This document shows, piece by piece, positions 7,149-64,000 of a DNA stretch of 64,000 nt. Source of the DNA: Bacteroidales bacterium (GTDB lineage: Bacteria > Bacteroidota > Bacteroidia > Bacteroidales > VadinHA17); NCBI GenBank assembly GCA_016928075.1, contig JAFGLJ010000042.1, forward strand, positions 124,001-188,000, in the 5' to 3' direction. Position 1 is the stretch's first letter; each line of letters starts with the position of its first letter. The notes beneath the pieces are model-generated. The model saw nothing but the letters and a program-made list of their open reading frames with translations. It did no database searches and had not been told where the DNA came from. A program made the translations under genes and the position numbers.

Positions 7149-8180
7149 TTAAGGACTTATTTCTCCCCTGAGGCTCCTATTTAGAAGTGTTTTAATTATA
7201 CCTGCATCATCATAATTACCAAGTAAGTACATAAGTTTGGTCACAGCAGCCTCTGCGGTGATATCATGACCACTGATTACTCCAGCCTCCGTTAATTTAC
7301 GCCCCGTTTCATAAATGCTCATATCTACCCTTCCTGAGTAACATTGTGTAATATTCAGTACTAATCCACCACGCGAAATATAATCCCTGATTGTATCGAT
7401 ATACCATTCTGCGGATGGTCCGTTACCCGTTCCGTATGATTCAATAATAATAGCCCTGGTTGGCGAGTTGTAAAAAAACTTTTGCACAGCTTCCTTGTTG
7501 AACCCGGGAAATATTTTCAGGATTGATATATTACTATCCAGATTCATGGAGACCCTCAGGTTCTTCCTGACCGTAGGTGTAATTATAAGATTATGATTGA
7601 ATTTTATATTTATACCTGCTTCAGCAAGGGGAGGGTAATTCGGGGAATCAAAGGCATTAAAATGTTCAGAACTGAATTTTGTTGTACGATTACCTCTTCG
7701 AAGGTAATTTTCGAAAAAAATGCATACTTCGGGAACTGTTGTTTTTCTGTTATCATGTGAGGCTGCAATTTCTATTGCACCGATAAGGTTTTCCTTACCA
7801 TCAGTCCTAATCATACCTATAGGCAGTTGTGAGCCTGTAAATATCACCGGTTTCTCAAGATTTTCAAGCATAAAGCTGAGAGCGGAAGCTGAATAGGCCA
7901 TGGTATCCGTACCATGAAGAATGACAAAACCATCATAGCTGTGGTAATTCGCTTCAATCAGACCTGCCATTTTTTGCCATGATTCAGGGCTGATATCGGA
8001 GGAATCAATAAGGGGGTCAAAGGATATAGTGTCAATTCGACAATCAAAACGCTGGAGCTCGGGCACCTGTTGCTCAATATGCTTAAAATTGAACGGGACG
8101 AGCATTCCTGTCGAAGGATCATGCACCATTCCAATGGTACCGCCTGTATATAAAATAAGTATTGAGGCCGTGTCTTTCAA
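7149..8180 (-). CDS. ansA: Type I L-asparaginase
   Basis: 343 residues, hydrolysing asparagine to aspartate and ammonia, probably in the cytoplasm because no signal peptide is present. YTGGTIG at 11-17 holds the nucleophilic threonine and HGTDTMAYSASAL holds the second catalytic Thr-Asp pair. The start is a TTG at 8180: the catalytic motif begins at residue 11, and the in-frame stop at 8190 leaves no room for an ATG or GTG. That stop is the tatD stop codon, so ansA continues the tatD frame 9 bases later, which implies translational coupling. Confidence 0.9.
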   Translation of the reverse strand: MKDTASILILYTGGTIGMVHDPSTGMLVPFNFKHIEQQVPELQRFDCRIDTISFDPLIDSSDISPESWQKMAGLIEANYHSYDGFVILHGTDTMAYSASALSFMLENLEKPVIFTGSQLPIGMIRTDGKENLIGAIEIAASHDNRKTTVPEVCIFFENYLRRGNRTTKFSSEHFNAFDSPNYPPLAEAGINIKFNHNLIITPTVRKNLRVSMNLDSNISILKIFPGFNKEAVQKFFYNSPTRAIIIESYGTGNGPSAEWYIDTIRDYISRGGLVLNITQCYSGRVDMSIYETGRKLTEAGVISGHDITAEAAVTKLMYLLGNYDDAGIIKTLLNRSLRGEISP

Positions 8181-14418: not shown

Positions 14419-16176
14419 ATGTACAGAACACACAATTGCGGAGTACTTAATTTATCCAACCGTGGTGAAAAGGTTATATTAAGTGGCTGGGTCCATAAAT
14501 CCCGGGACCTGGGTGGAATGACGTTCATTGACCTTCGTGACAGGTATGGGAAAACCCAGCTTGTTTTCAATATGGAAACGAATCCAGAATTATGCTCCAA
14601 AGCGAGAAAGCTGGGCAGGGAATATGTCATCCGTGCTGAAGGTATGGTTGTAGAGAGAAGTAATAAAAACCCTAATATGCCTACAGGGGATATTGAGATA
14701 ATTGTTGAAAGTCTTGATGTACTTAACAAAAGTCAACTTCCACCTTTTACCATCGAGGATGATACTGATGGGGGTGATGAATTGAGGATGAAATACAGGT
14801 ACCTAGATCTCAGGCGTGAGCCTGTTAAACATAATATAATTCATCGCCACAGGGTTGCCCAGGAAACAAGAAAATATCTGGATTCACAGGGTTTTATTGA
14901 GATAGAGACACCTGTACTCATAAAATCAACACCGGAAGGGGCACGTGACTTCGTGGTCCCCTCAAGGGTACATCCGGGCTCCTTTTATGCACTGCCTCAA
15001 TCACCGCAGATATTTAAGCAATTATTAATGATATCAGGGTTTGATAAATATTTTCAGATTGTCAGATGTTTCCGTGATGAGGATCTCCGTGCCGACAGAC
15101 AACCTGAGTTTACCCAGATAGACTGTGAAATGTCATTTGTTGAGCGTGACGATGTGCTGGATGCTTTCGAAGGCCTGGCGGTTTATCTTTTCAAGGCGAT
15201 AAAAAATTATGATATAAAGGAATCCTTCCCACGAATAACTTATGATCAGGCTGTGTCAGAATATGGCACTGACAAGCCCGATATCAGGTTTGGCATGAAA
15301 ATCGGGGATATTACCGGTAAGGTTAAAGGATCCGGTTTTAATGTATTCGACAACTCTGAATACACCGGAGGAATAGTTGCCACGGGCTGTGCCGCTTATT
15401 CCAGGAAAGATCTTGACGGAATGACTGATTTTGTAAAAAGACCACAGATTGGTGCCGGTGGCCTTGTCTATGTTAAGTACAATGAGGATGGTTCGTTTAA
15501 GTCATCTGTCGATAAATTTTTCAGCCCTGAAGACCTCAAAGGATTGACTGATTTAATGGATGCCCGTCCCGGGGACCTGATTCTTATCCTGTCAGGGGAG
15601 AGGACACAGACCCTATACGCACTTTCGGAACTGCGACTGGAAATGGGTGACCGATTGGGCTTGAGGGATAAGGAACAGTTCAAACCCCTGTGGATAGTGG
15701 ATTTTCCCCTCCTGGAGTGGGATGATGAAACGCAGAGGTATTATGCGATGCACCATCCTTTCACATCACCAAAAACTGAAGACCTCCATATGCTTGAATC
15801 AGATCCCGGCAAAGTGAGGGCAAATTCTTATGATTTGGTAATCAATGGTGTTGAAATAGGCGGAGGTTCCATCAGAATACATGATGCTGAAATACAGAAG
15901 AAAATGTTAAGGGTGCTTGGGTTTACTGATGAGGAGGCCAATTCACAATTTGGATTCCTGATGAATGCTTTCAGATATGGGGCACCACCGCATGGCGGTA
16001 TAGCATTTGGTTTCGACCGCTGGGTGGCCCTTTTCGCCGGCTCCGAAACAATAAGGGATTTTATTGCTTTCCCTAAAAACAATGCCGGAAGGGATGTCAT
16101 GATTGATTCACCTTCAAAAATCTCTGATGATCAACTCAATGAACTTAACTTGCAGCTTATAAGAAAGGGGATATGA
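14419..16176 (+). CDS. aspS: Aspartyl-tRNA synthetase, bacterial type
   Basis: 585 residues, the normal length of bacterial AspRS. The N-terminal OB fold ([26 protein letters not shown]) binds the anticodon. Class II motif 2 is [18 protein letters not shown]. The inserted GAD domain occupies roughly residues 290-410. Motif 3 is [14 protein letters not shown]. The GAD insertion marks the bacterial rather than the archaeal enzyme. Transcribed alone, with its own promoter and a terminator that begins inside the last codons. Confidence 0.96.
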
Positions 16177-51091: not shown

Positions 51092-52477
51092 TTACTTCCT
51101 GAATTGCCTGATAAACTCCTCCACTTCCTTTACCCCTCCCTGGTAAACAAGGTAGCCGTTATAGGGTTCTCTTTCGGTTATCTCATCATTTACCGGCTTA
51201 AGCATTATTTCTTTTACTTCATCCGGATCATCGGTTTGTCCGAGGGCCCATCCCAGCTTGACCCATGCAACCTCTGGAAGCATATTGCCCAGAGGCACCA
51301 CCCCCTTGGCCATCATATCACGTCCTGTTTCATATACCATCATATGTACATAACCCCATATAGTCTGGAGTGTCATAAAAACCGACACTCCCTTTTCTTT
51401 TGCTCTCTCAAGTGCAGGATAAAGTTCCCTGTTGACATGTCCCAGTCCGGTTCCCACTATTATGATACCTTTATAACCCATTTCCACAAGACTGTCAAGC
51501 ATTTCAGGTTTCATGTGGGGGTAGTAATAAAGCATGGTAACCAGCTCATTGAAGAAAGGCATGATTTTCACTTTCCTATCCTTGCGGCGCGGGTTATATT
51601 TTTTCTTTATATGTTCAATGCCTTCTCTTGTGACTGTTGCTACGGGTGTGTCTCCTATTGTCCTGAAGGTTGACCGGTAGGAGCTGTGCATTTTCCTGAC
51701 CCTGGTTCCCCTGTGAAGGAAGCCATATTCATCGGAGGTTGGACCGAACATGCAAACAAGCACTTCCGCAATATCACCATGTCCGGCAGCGTATGAGGCA
51801 TGAATAAGGTTAAGGGCTGCGTCGGATGAAGGGCGGTCCGATGATCGCTGTGAACCAACCAGTATAACCGGTATGGGAAGGTTCTGTACCATAAATGATA
51901 ATGCTGCCGCTGTATGGTGCAGGGTATCCGTACCATGGCCGATTATTATTCCGTCAGCACCGTTCTCAATCTCCTTGCCAATTGCTTTTGCAAGGGTAAT
52001 ATATTGATCGGGCCCCATGTTCTCACTGAAAACAGCAAACAGTTTTTCAGTATTTATATTACAGATATCAGCAAGCTCCGGTACGGCACCGTAAAGCTCC
52101 CCGGGCGAGAAAGCCGGGATAACTGCTCCAGTCCGGTAATCCAATCTTGATGCTATGGTACCTCCGGTACCAAACAGTTTGACAGTGGGTTTATCATCAG
52201 AATAAGGAAACTCCTTTTCGGGTATTTTATAAATGGCTTTCTGATAGCCTGTTTCTTTCATCGATGTTATAGTACTGACATTAATCCCAATATTATAACC
52301 GGTTTCGATCTTAAGAACCAGGTGTCTGTCGTCATCATTCTCCGATCTCGGCAGCACAGTACCCCTGAATACCCCCCTGGTGGTTTCAATATAAGCCTGT
52401 CCCCATACCCTTACATTGTATTTTTTAAGAGTACTGAGTGCTATACCCCTGTATCCCTGGAATATCTGATCAGTCAT
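51092..52477 (-). CDS. gatD: Archaeal-type Glu-tRNA(Gln) amidotransferase subunit D
   Basis: 461 residues. An N-terminal Tudor-like domain of about 75 residues (VRVWGQAYIETTRGVFRGTVLPRS) is absent from plain asparaginases and is characteristic of GatD. The asparaginase-like core has LFGTGGTIASRLDYRTGAV and GHGTDTLHHTAAALSFM with the catalytic Thr and Thr-Asp, plus MHSSYRSTF. It releases ammonia from glutamine or asparagine for GatE. The ATG at 52477 overlaps the gatE stop by 8 bases; a TTG 21 bases upstream is a possible alternative. The family is known mainly from archaea. Confidence 0.92.
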   Translation of the reverse strand: MTDQIFQGYRGIALSTLKKYNVRVWGQAYIETTRGVFRGTVLPRSENDDDRHLVLKIETGYNIGINVSTITSMKETGYQKAIYKIPEKEFPYSDDKPTVKLFGTGGTIASRLDYRTGAVIPAFSPGELYGAVPELADICNINTEKLFAVFSENMGPDQYITLAKAIGKEIENGADGIIIGHGTDTLHHTAAALSFMVQNLPIPVILVGSQRSSDRPSSDAALNLIHASYAAGHGDIAEVLVCMFGPTSDEYGFLHRGTRVRKMHSSYRSTFRTIGDTPVATVTREGIEHIKKKYNPRRKDRKVKIMPFFNELVTMLYYYPHMKPEMLDSLVEMGYKGIIIVGTGLGHVNRELYPALERAKEKGVSVFMTLQTIWGYVHMMVYETGRDMMAKGVVPLGNMLPEVAWVKLGWALGQTDDPDEVKEIMLKPVNDEITEREPYNGYLVYQGGVKEVEEFIRQFRK

Positions 52478-54452
52478 TTGCCAGGATTCTTTGTTCAATC
52501 TTTCTTCTTAATTCACTTAACCTTAAATTTCCTGTCGCATGGTTTCTTAGCTGTCCCATAATCCAATTTACGGCAGAACCGGGATCATCCGACAGCCGTT
52601 CTTCCATAAATTTTTTGTAAAGGAAATCAACAGGAGCAAGAATTTCATCAGCTCCTACATTTTTATAATTCAGTATTGTAAGTATGGACTCATATCTCAT
52701 TTTAGGATGTTCGATCAGTACCTTAATCATGGGGGCCGCCATATCAATCTGCAGTCCTTTGGAGTTGATAAAACCCAAAAGCTTGTAAATAATATCATAA
52801 TTGAAATCTTTATGAGCTTTCATGGTTCCTTCGATATTCTTGAACCTGTGACCGAGAAAAATACCTATGACTCGGGGATCAAAACCAAAATCATTTGATA
52901 TCGAGACTATCAGGGGATACAGGTTTTTACTGAGGATATAATCATAGGTATCTTCCGGGATTCCCCATTTTTGCATCTGCTTTATCCTTTCAGAAACGAA
53001 ACCAGGTAATCTTGGTTTAATCTCCTCAATCTGTTCATCTTGCAGAGGAATAGGTGCAGAGTCAGTGTCGGGGTACATCCTGTCCTTCCCCGGCAGCACT
53101 CTCTCGAACATTGTGGTGCCATCAGGGAATGATTTTCTGGTTTCGTTTGGCACACCTGAAAAGGCCAGATGTATCCTTTCCTCCACTGTTTCCAGTGCGG
53201 TAGGGATATCCGCCGGGGGTCCCCAGAGGATTATCTGGGCATCATTATCTGATGCCCCGAGAAAAGCTGATACCTTCTTCCATTTATCCCTGGAAATTAA
53301 CGGTTCCAGCTCTTCTGAATGGATCATATTGGGCTTTTCAATACATGCTATAACCTTCAGCCTGTCACTTATCTCGTCAGCAAAAATTTTCCCGGGCTGG
53401 GTGAAGTGCGACAGTATTGAATAAAAGCCAGGGAGATTGAGTGCGAAAACCTGCATATCATTATCAAGGGCTTTCTTCACAGGTTCTGAAAGCAATGCCG
53501 TATCGTTGCCGCTTATTTCCCTGTATTCGATTTTCCATTCGGCAGGATCATTAAACCTGACATTAAGGATATTCCTGATATGAAGAAGTGCATATTGCCG
53601 GAATGCTTCATTATGAGACAATTTAGGTATCCATCTGTTATGAGCCACACCTTTAATCTCAACCCTGCTCCCTCCCTCGCAGCTTACATTCACGTCTTCC
53701 CTTCCTGAACCTATACCCGTTCTGACCTTTCCGGTGCTTCTGTTAAGGTATCTGATATATTCTGCCGCTTCCTTCAGTTCCCATGGTGTAAACATGTCGG
53801 TGTGGGTGACGGTTTCAATGAGTGGCATTCCGAGACGGTCAGTTTTAAATATGCGGGTATGGCCAATGTCAGATATTTCACGGCATGAATCTTCTTCAAT
53901 ACTTAGCTGCATTATCCTTACTCGCTTGTTGGTCAGTTCAATTTCACCTTCTACCCCAAGTATGGCTGACCTCTGGAAACCCGTCGGAATACTGCCATCA
54001 AGATATTGTTTTCGTATAATGTGAACCTCGCCAACAATATTAAGTTTGCATAAAAGTGCTATCTCGAGTGCTATGTCAAGGGCTTCCCTGTCAATGGGGA
54101 AGGGAGGGGTATCATCAACTTCATAGGTGCAGGCATTCTCATTATTGATATGGTAAATTATCTCTTTGCGTGTCTTAAATTCCATGAGAGCAGTACCGTC
54201 GTATTCACCCAGCTCACTGAGGGTAGGGCGCATATGCCGGATAACTTCGGCATCGTAATCATGATTATCATGGTAAATCCCGGCCGGACAGCGGCAAAAA
54301 AGCTTACTCTCAGTATCCAGCTGTTGATGAACCTCAAGCCCTGACTTAAATCCTATCCTGCGATAGTCCTCCTCGGTTGCATCCTGCAGACTAACATAAC
54401 CGATCAGCTTACGGGTTGATTCATAGTTCCTTTTTGGACTAAACCTTTTCAT
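52470..54452 (-). CDS. gatE: Archaeal-type Glu-tRNA(Gln) amidotransferase subunit E
   Basis: 660 residues. Phosphorylates and amidates Glu on tRNA-Gln. The GatB/E core shows IGFKSGLEVHQQLDTESKLFCRCPAG, PTGFQRSAILGVEGEIEL, QLSIEEDSCREI, DRLGMPLIETVTH and SGREDVNVSCEGGSRVEIKGV. A GAD-like insertion occupies roughly 295-410, a feature of GatE but not GatB. A helical and tail domain for tRNA binding ends the protein (YQEY-like region, GADEILAPVDF). First of a two-gene unit with gatD. Bacteria normally use GatCAB or GlnRS instead. Confidence 0.94.
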   Translation of the reverse strand: MKRFSPKRNYESTRKLIGYVSLQDATEEDYRRIGFKSGLEVHQQLDTESKLFCRCPAGIYHDNHDYDAEVIRHMRPTLSELGEYDGTALMEFKTRKEIIYHINNENACTYEVDDTPPFPIDREALDIALEIALLCKLNIVGEVHIIRKQYLDGSIPTGFQRSAILGVEGEIELTNKRVRIMQLSIEEDSCREISDIGHTRIFKTDRLGMPLIETVTHTDMFTPWELKEAAEYIRYLNRSTGKVRTGIGSGREDVNVSCEGGSRVEIKGVAHNRWIPKLSHNEAFRQYALLHIRNILNVRFNDPAEWKIEYREISGNDTALLSEPVKKALDNDMQVFALNLPGFYSILSHFTQPGKIFADEISDRLKVIACIEKPNMIHSEELEPLISRDKWKKVSAFLGASDNDAQIILWGPPADIPTALETVEERIHLAFSGVPNETRKSFPDGTTMFERVLPGKDRMYPDTDSAPIPLQDEQIEEIKPRLPGFVSERIKQMQKWGIPEDTYDYILSKNLYPLIVSISNDFGFDPRVIGIFLGHRFKNIEGTMKAHKDFNYDIIYKLLGFINSKGLQIDMAAPMIKVLIEHPKMRYESILTILNYKNVGADEILAPVDFLYKKFMEERLSDDPGSAVNWIMGQLRNHATGNLRLSELRRKIEQRILAND

Positions 54453-63618: not shown

Positions 63619-64000
63619 ATGATTGATAATGAAATTTTAATGAACCCTAATGAACTGGTACAATTCCTGAAAAAACCTGCCAGAGAGTTTACCAGGGCTG
63701 ACATAATAAGTTTTATTGAAGCCAAGGGCATAGAGATGATAAATTTCCGTTATGTCGCTGAAGATGGAAAGCTCAAAACGCTCAATTTCGTAATGTCGAA
63801 CCGCAAGCATCTTGAGAACTTGCTGTCGGAGGGGGAAAGGGTTGATGGTTCCAGCCTTTTTTCCTTTGTGGGAGCCGGCTCGAGCGATCTTTATGTTATA
63901 CCCAGGTACCGCACGGCTTTTGTTAATCCTTTCACTGAGAAGCCTGCCCTGGATATGCTGTGTTCATTTTATGACTTTGAGGGTAAGCCTCTTGAAAGCG
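63619..64000 (+). CDS. glnA: Glutamine synthetase, N-terminal part (runs off window)
   Basis: The first 127 codons of a glutamine synthetase. After a 26-residue lead (MIDNEILMNPNELVQFLKKP) the beta-grasp domain shows IISFIEAKGIEMINFRYVAEDGKLK and the hallmark GERVDGSSLFSFVGAGSSDLYVIP, with DGSS and the following SD typical of type I-like enzymes. It would make glutamine from glutamate and ammonia. The catalytic domain lies outside the window, so a non-canonical family member cannot be excluded. The ATG at 63619 is 33 bases after a consensus promoter. Confidence 0.85.
   Translation, partial: MIDNEILMNPNELVQFLKKPAREFTRADIISFIEAKGIEMINFRYVAEDGKLKTLNFVMSNRKHLENLLSEGERVDGSSLFSFVGAGSSDLYVIPRYRTAFVNPFTEKPALDMLCSFYDFEGKPLES

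Follow-up and report, generated by a model that had tools for sequence, protein, structure and literature searches.

The window, a stretch of 64,000 nucleotides from a Bacteroidales genome, carries two adjacent genes on its minus strand. The upstream gene, gatE (52470..54452), encodes a protein of 660 amino acids with cradle (kinase/amidation), insertion, helical, and YqeY-like tail regions. The downstream gene, gatD (51092..52477), encodes 461 amino acids from its ATG, a GatD_N domain followed by an asparaginase-like glutaminase. The gatE stop and the gatD start share an overlap of 8 nucleotides, ATGACTGA (52470..52477, minus strand), where gatE ends GCA AAT GAC TGA and gatD begins ATG ACT GAT. 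A mechanical ORF call starts gatD 21 nucleotides farther upstream at a TTG, giving 468 amino acids; the best reading is the one from the ATG. Judging by ORF ends, the same 8-nucleotide overlap occurs in two other genomes of the genus, G002 and G003. An earlier note on this DNA had described two full-length subunits in one coupled unit, and the exact overlap bears it out.

Families were assigned with curated NCBIfam equivalog models and their cut-offs, together with Pfam. GatE scores 481 bits to NF003107 (cut-off 456) and 425 to TIGR00134 (cut-off 320), and stays below 110 bits for all GatB models, whose cut-offs are at least 314. GatD scores 494 bits to NF003217 (cut-off 310) and 493 to TIGR02153 (cut-off 324), while asparaginase-equivalog models fall well under cut-off. 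Pfam recognizes GatD_N (PF18195), Asparaginase (PF00710), and Asparaginase_C (PF17763) in GatD, and GatB_N in GatE; GatD_N, at residues 40-77, is the Tudor-like N-terminal domain that the earlier note had proposed. The closest solved structures for both subunits are those from M. thermautotrophicus (2d6f) and P. abyssi (1zq1), and GatE aligns end to end with the 2d6f protein. The GAD-like insertion attributed to GatE is present in that full-length alignment and in an AlphaFold model, but draws no match to Pfam GAD at an E-value of 0.001. The model (mean pLDDT 90.6) has 1zq1 and 2d6f as its best PDB matches by Foldseek, with E-values of about 1e-44 to 1e-40, including 8.5e-44 to 1zq1, against only about 1e-22 or weaker for GatB chains. 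None of these scores, nor the overlap, nor the structural match, is at chance level. A separate type I asparaginase gene lies at 7149-8180 of the window (minus strand; TIGR00519, 335 bits), so that GatD is not the plain asparaginase of the cell. As judged by models and alignments, with which the trees described below agree, membership of both genes in the GatDE family is secure, and the proteins are GatD and GatE rather than GatB and a plain asparaginase.

The residues H15, E157, E158, E184, R221, D223, and N225 (Mth numbering) are all retained in Bacteroidales GatE, which differs at just two of the 46 positions common to archaeal GatE and GatB. Of 110 archaeal-conserved GatE positions, 81 are retained in Bacteroidales and 77 in other bacteria. 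The GatD catalytic set, T101, T177, D178, and K254 in Mth, corresponds to T114, T190, D191, and K269 in the numbering of the 468-residue ORF and is invariant across 35 bacterial rows of the alignment; the GatE catalytic residues are likewise retained in every bacterial row. An E. coli asparaginase II sequence, included for GatD numbering, aligned as expected. Compared with G002 by NG86, dN is 0.117 and dS about 3.3 for gatE, and dN is 0.039 and dS about 2.1 for gatD, with dS saturated for both. Because dN is low and dS high, both genes are evidently under strong purifying selection.

The host genome is a metagenome-assembled genome (MAG) of 2.76 Mb, 75.7% complete with 2% contamination. Its single PF02934 (GatB_N-family) protein is the window GatE, and neither GatB nor GatA was found in the 75.7% that is assembled. 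Two Amidase genes score under the gatA cut-off; a GatA hidden among them was ruled out, both being exported or lipoprotein-like amidases. The GlnRS encoded on contig C63 is full length, carries the HIGH and MSK motifs, and scores 706 bits to TIGR00440 (cut-off 426); a tRNA-Gln(CTG) gene directly follows glnS. The same arrangement recurs in three genomes of the genus (G000:C63 in the host; G001:C373, G002:C36, G003:C56), so C63 belongs to the genome, which argues against a binning error. Other Bacteroidales also show tRNA-Gln adjoining glnS. The expectation that this genome might lack GlnRS or GatCAB therefore holds for GatA and GatB, as far as the assembly goes, and fails for GlnRS.

Host GltX is of the bacterial type, and a search of the genome for a second GluRS returned only GlnRS and GltX. 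An Arg at the position of T. thermophilus Arg358 marks a discriminating GltX. The host enzyme retains it, as do those of GatCAB hosts, so it is a weak marker. Both host tRNA-Gln genes have U1:A72, as do the other Bacteroidales tRNA-Gln examined, alike in hosts with and without GatE, by a search that favours close matches. A shift of tRNA-Gln to the archaeal A1:U72 in hosts with GatE is ruled out for the Bacteroidales tRNAs examined, within that close-match bias. The acceptor stem of tRNA-Glu(TTC) (L274; G000:C27:1181-1252) ends in a G1:U72 wobble, in contrast to U1:A72 in tRNA-Gln, and this could help an amidotransferase distinguish tRNA-Glu from tRNA-Gln. The genome also encodes AsnRS and two glutamine-synthetase-family proteins. 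A bacterial AspRS is in the window at 14419-16176 (plus strand), as the earlier note had observed; its contention that only the glutamine branch looks archaeal does not survive the presence of GlnRS, a GltX of bacterial type, and U1:A72 in tRNA-Gln.

GatE was called in relatives at 157 bits or more to NF003107, where GatB reaches at most 88. Counting the host itself, 63 of the 147 genomes in the relatives set have it. Presence is consistent by genus: all members of g12 have it, all of g10 but two incomplete genomes, and none of g7 or g13. A sample of 296 genomes from the phylum has full-length GatE in another class as well. Among the matches listed from a motif scan of GTDB contigs are many archaea, Labilibaculum isolates, Saprospiraceae, and Ignavibacteria, with GatE also in Fermentibacterota/Aegiribacteria, Krumholzibacteriota, Gemmatimonadota, Cloacimonadota, and Myxococcota. 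NCBI taxonomy includes Gemmatimonadota, Cloacimonadota, Fermentibacterota, and the Bacteroidota/Chlorobiota clade in the FCB group. To speak of the pair in a Bacteroidota genome understates a broad bacterial family. Bacterial gatE and gatD always occur together in the loci examined.

GlnRS is missing from 10 of 63 genomes with GatE and 12 of 84 without it (p 0.82), absences that look like ordinary MAG drop-out; the counts show no association that would make GatDE a compensation for lost GlnRS. Two similar proposals were rejected. GatDE does not replace AsnRS, present in the host and in 136 of 147 relatives, nor does it offset a missing glutamine synthetase, a gene of that family being found in 144 of 147. 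Among 34 further GatDE-containing bacteria, GlnRS scores above cut-off in 28 and is represented by partial genes in two, and GatB is found in 17. GatDE and GlnRS occur together in cultured Labilibaculum isolates and in the single-contig genomes G270, G278, and G446, of which G270 and G278 encode GatB also. These two, with G330, G165, and others from another class of the phylum, have three possible enzymes for Gln-tRNA. In the assembled part of two Fermentibacteria/Aegiribacteria MAGs, G442 and G443 (loci L099 and L103), GatDE was found and GlnRS and GatB were not; these might be bacteria that rely on GatDE alone.

In the GatE tree, bacteria and archaea fall on opposite sides of one 100/100 branch, and Bacteroidales-type GatE groups together at 100/100 on a long stem (0.75). 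With GatB as outgroup, set apart from GatE at 100/100 by a branch about 4 long in total, bacterial GatE is one clade (99/100) and Lokiarchaeota are its weak sister (80/79). In the GatD tree, bacteria again form one clade (100/99), which joins Lokiarchaeota and no other archaea at 100/100; the asparaginase outgroup row sits on a very long branch (8). In 58 bacterial loci and three from Lokiarchaeota gatE comes first (E>D); 33 archaeal loci have D>E. With four Asgard sequences sampled, trees and gene order together speak for an ancient gene exchange that involved bacteria and an Asgard-related lineage, in keeping with the earlier note's proposal of ancient or lateral acquisition. Because Saprospiraceae and G302, from another class, carry Bacteroidales-type GatE (L065 (G302), L117, L143), later transfer of gatDE inside the phylum is suggested. 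Two records depart from the general pattern. A Thermoplasmata archaeon record, bin33, with a 5.2 Mb chromosome, has a bacterial-like GatD (L106:4312-5499, 616 bits) on the strand opposite its GatE, from either reverse transfer or mis-assembly. A Liptonbacteria-labelled contig (L158:4283-8000) has a short GatE and D>E order, as in DPANN archaea, and is probably a mis-binned archaeal contig.

The gatDE genes sit on a contig of 230 kb among genes that are syntenic within the family. Neighbours are conserved in the family only, and no partner gene conserved across all bacteria was found. A divergent gene of the glutamine synthetase family begins within the window, its first 127 codons at 63619..64000 (plus strand), and runs beyond the window to encode 501 amino acids in all (L317:4620-6125). 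Its product scores 212 bits to the GlnA model (cut-off 429) and is distinct from the glutamine synthetase of about 730 amino acids. This gene is present in 54 of 63 genomes with GatE and 33 of 84 without; taking one genome per family, in 20 of 22 and 15 of 37 (p 1e-4), statistics uncorrected for phylogeny and genome size. It lies about 9 kb from gatDE in the host and about 9-10 kb away in several genomes of the family, and across Bacteroidales families the distance is often 8-10 kb; in G126, from another family, GS, glnS, and gatED all fall within about 11 kb. The tie is an association only. In two genomes of different classes glnS adjoins gatED: in G126 (L210:7201-12390) it directly precedes the pair and shares its strand, and in G160 (L226:5418-10461) it faces gatD.

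These genes encode a genuine, selectively maintained GatDE of a bacterial clade. The explanation we prefer for its present role, to which we assign an even chance, is that of an active Glu-tRNA(Gln) amidotransferase that would serve as an auxiliary or repair route beside GlnRS. By analogy with the family, GatD would hydrolyse glutamine or asparagine, and the ammonia would move to GatE, which would phosphorylate and then amidate the side chain of tRNA-bound glutamate. GltX would yield small or conditional amounts of Glu-tRNA(Gln) for GatDE to turn into Gln-tRNA(Gln), the pathway being a second one or a means of repair and not the sole source. Because the cell also has GlnRS, an auxiliary role appears most likely, and GlnRS accompanies GatE in nearly all genomes, Labilibaculum isolates included, with no gap of the AsnRS or glutamine synthetase type for GatDE to fill. 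Several observations weigh against the auxiliary route. The discriminating-type Arg in GltX, weak marker though it is, may mean that little Glu-tRNA(Gln) is made; host tRNA-Gln has U1:A72, whereas archaeal GatDE reads A1:U72; and the long stem of Bacteroidales GatE could mean changed specificity. In the main rival, the enzyme acts on another aminoacyl-tRNA (e.g. Asp-tRNA(Asn)) or on a carboxylate outside tRNA, its specificity having shifted once the GlnRS route freed GatDE, most clearly on the Bacteroidales stem. The near-constant presence of GlnRS, the lack of the archaeal A1:U72 pair in host tRNA-Gln, and the co-occurring divergent glutamine-synthetase-family gene all fit such a change, as does GatB in half of the other GatDE-containing bacteria, since where GatB and GlnRS are both present a third route to glutamine would be redundant. 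Retention of the catalytic and most archaeal-conserved positions speaks against it, and AsnRS leaves no gap in Asn-tRNA; we consider a changed substrate unlikely, though the strongest of the rivals.

On a further reading, in the direction of what the earlier note implied, GatDE with a non-discriminating GltX would be the main or essential route and supply the bulk of Gln-tRNA(Gln), GlnRS being minor. The failure to find GatB and GatA in the host assembly and the two MAGs with neither GlnRS nor GatB detected would suit an essential route of this kind, but intact GlnRS in the host and its relatives, and its equal rate of absence with and without GatE, make it a distinctly poor prospect. Poorer still is the idea of a relic with no selected function, left behind after GlnRS was acquired: presence is patchy at the genus level, yet the genes are paired and full length, their catalytic residues do not vary, and purifying selection on them is strong over many families. 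An assembly or binning artefact, in which the bacterial bin took in an archaeal contig or a GlnRS contig from elsewhere, comes to mind for a MAG that is 76% complete, but we give it next to no credence, given the family-syntenic 230-kb contig, the synteny of glnS and tRNA-Gln across the genus, the joint occurrence of GatDE and GlnRS in isolates and single-contig genomes, and the clustering of both proteins with other bacteria rather than archaea. For the family as a whole, we tentatively propose, at somewhat less than an even chance, a largely FCB-group, Asgard-related GatDE kept beside GlnRS, and sometimes GatCAB, for a role other than bulk synthesis of Gln-tRNA(Gln), whether that is amidating Glu-tRNA(Gln) conditionally or for repair, or amidating a new substrate.

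Reviews treat GatDE as exclusive to archaea, and it serves as a signature protein for them (PMC8762117). Archaeal GatDE reads A1:U72 of tRNA-Gln, and its co-evolution with that tRNA has been put forward to explain why archaea never took up GlnRS (PMC9499178). As of 2014, no bacterium was known to have both routes to Gln-tRNA(Gln) (PMC4206432). A literature search, with subscription journals mostly outside its reach, found no paper on bacterial GatDE, and an earlier report is possible; automated models already label such bacterial proteins GatD and GatE. The GatDE described here is not a stray gene. It is part of a distinct, widespread bacterial branch, nearly always beside GlnRS. Bacteria with both, cultivated Labilibaculum included, contradict the archaeal-signature statement (PMC8762117) and qualify the co-evolution argument for GlnRS exclusion (PMC9499178). 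They are also organisms in which dual routes to Gln-tRNA, translational fidelity, and old gene exchange between archaea and bacteria can be tested.

Among known systems, archaeal GatDE (2d6f, 1zq1) has the same two subunits as the bacterial pair, with matching domain order, catalytic residues, and fold. The bacterial proteins differ in forming a separate clade, in the order E>D where archaea other than Lokiarchaeota have D>E, in a C-terminal extension of GatD (NGYLVYQGGVKEVEEFI) absent from the M. thermautotrophicus and Bathyarchaeota proteins, and, for the host here, in the company of GlnRS and a U1:A72 tRNA-Gln. Lokiarchaeota GatDE, with the same E>D order, are the nearest archaeal relatives, at 100/100 for GatD and weakly for GatE, yet bacterial GatE and GatD remain clades of their own. 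GatCAB also performs tRNA-dependent amidation, and GatB shares cradle and tail domains with GatE; the window GatE, however, is far under GatB cut-offs, in a genome where GatA and GatB were not found. The bacteria described here are like Deinococcus, Thermus, and Bdellovibrio, which have GlnRS, AsnRS, and GatCAB, in keeping an amidotransferase beside direct synthetases, although in those dual-route bacteria GatCAB is thought to serve Asn-tRNA.
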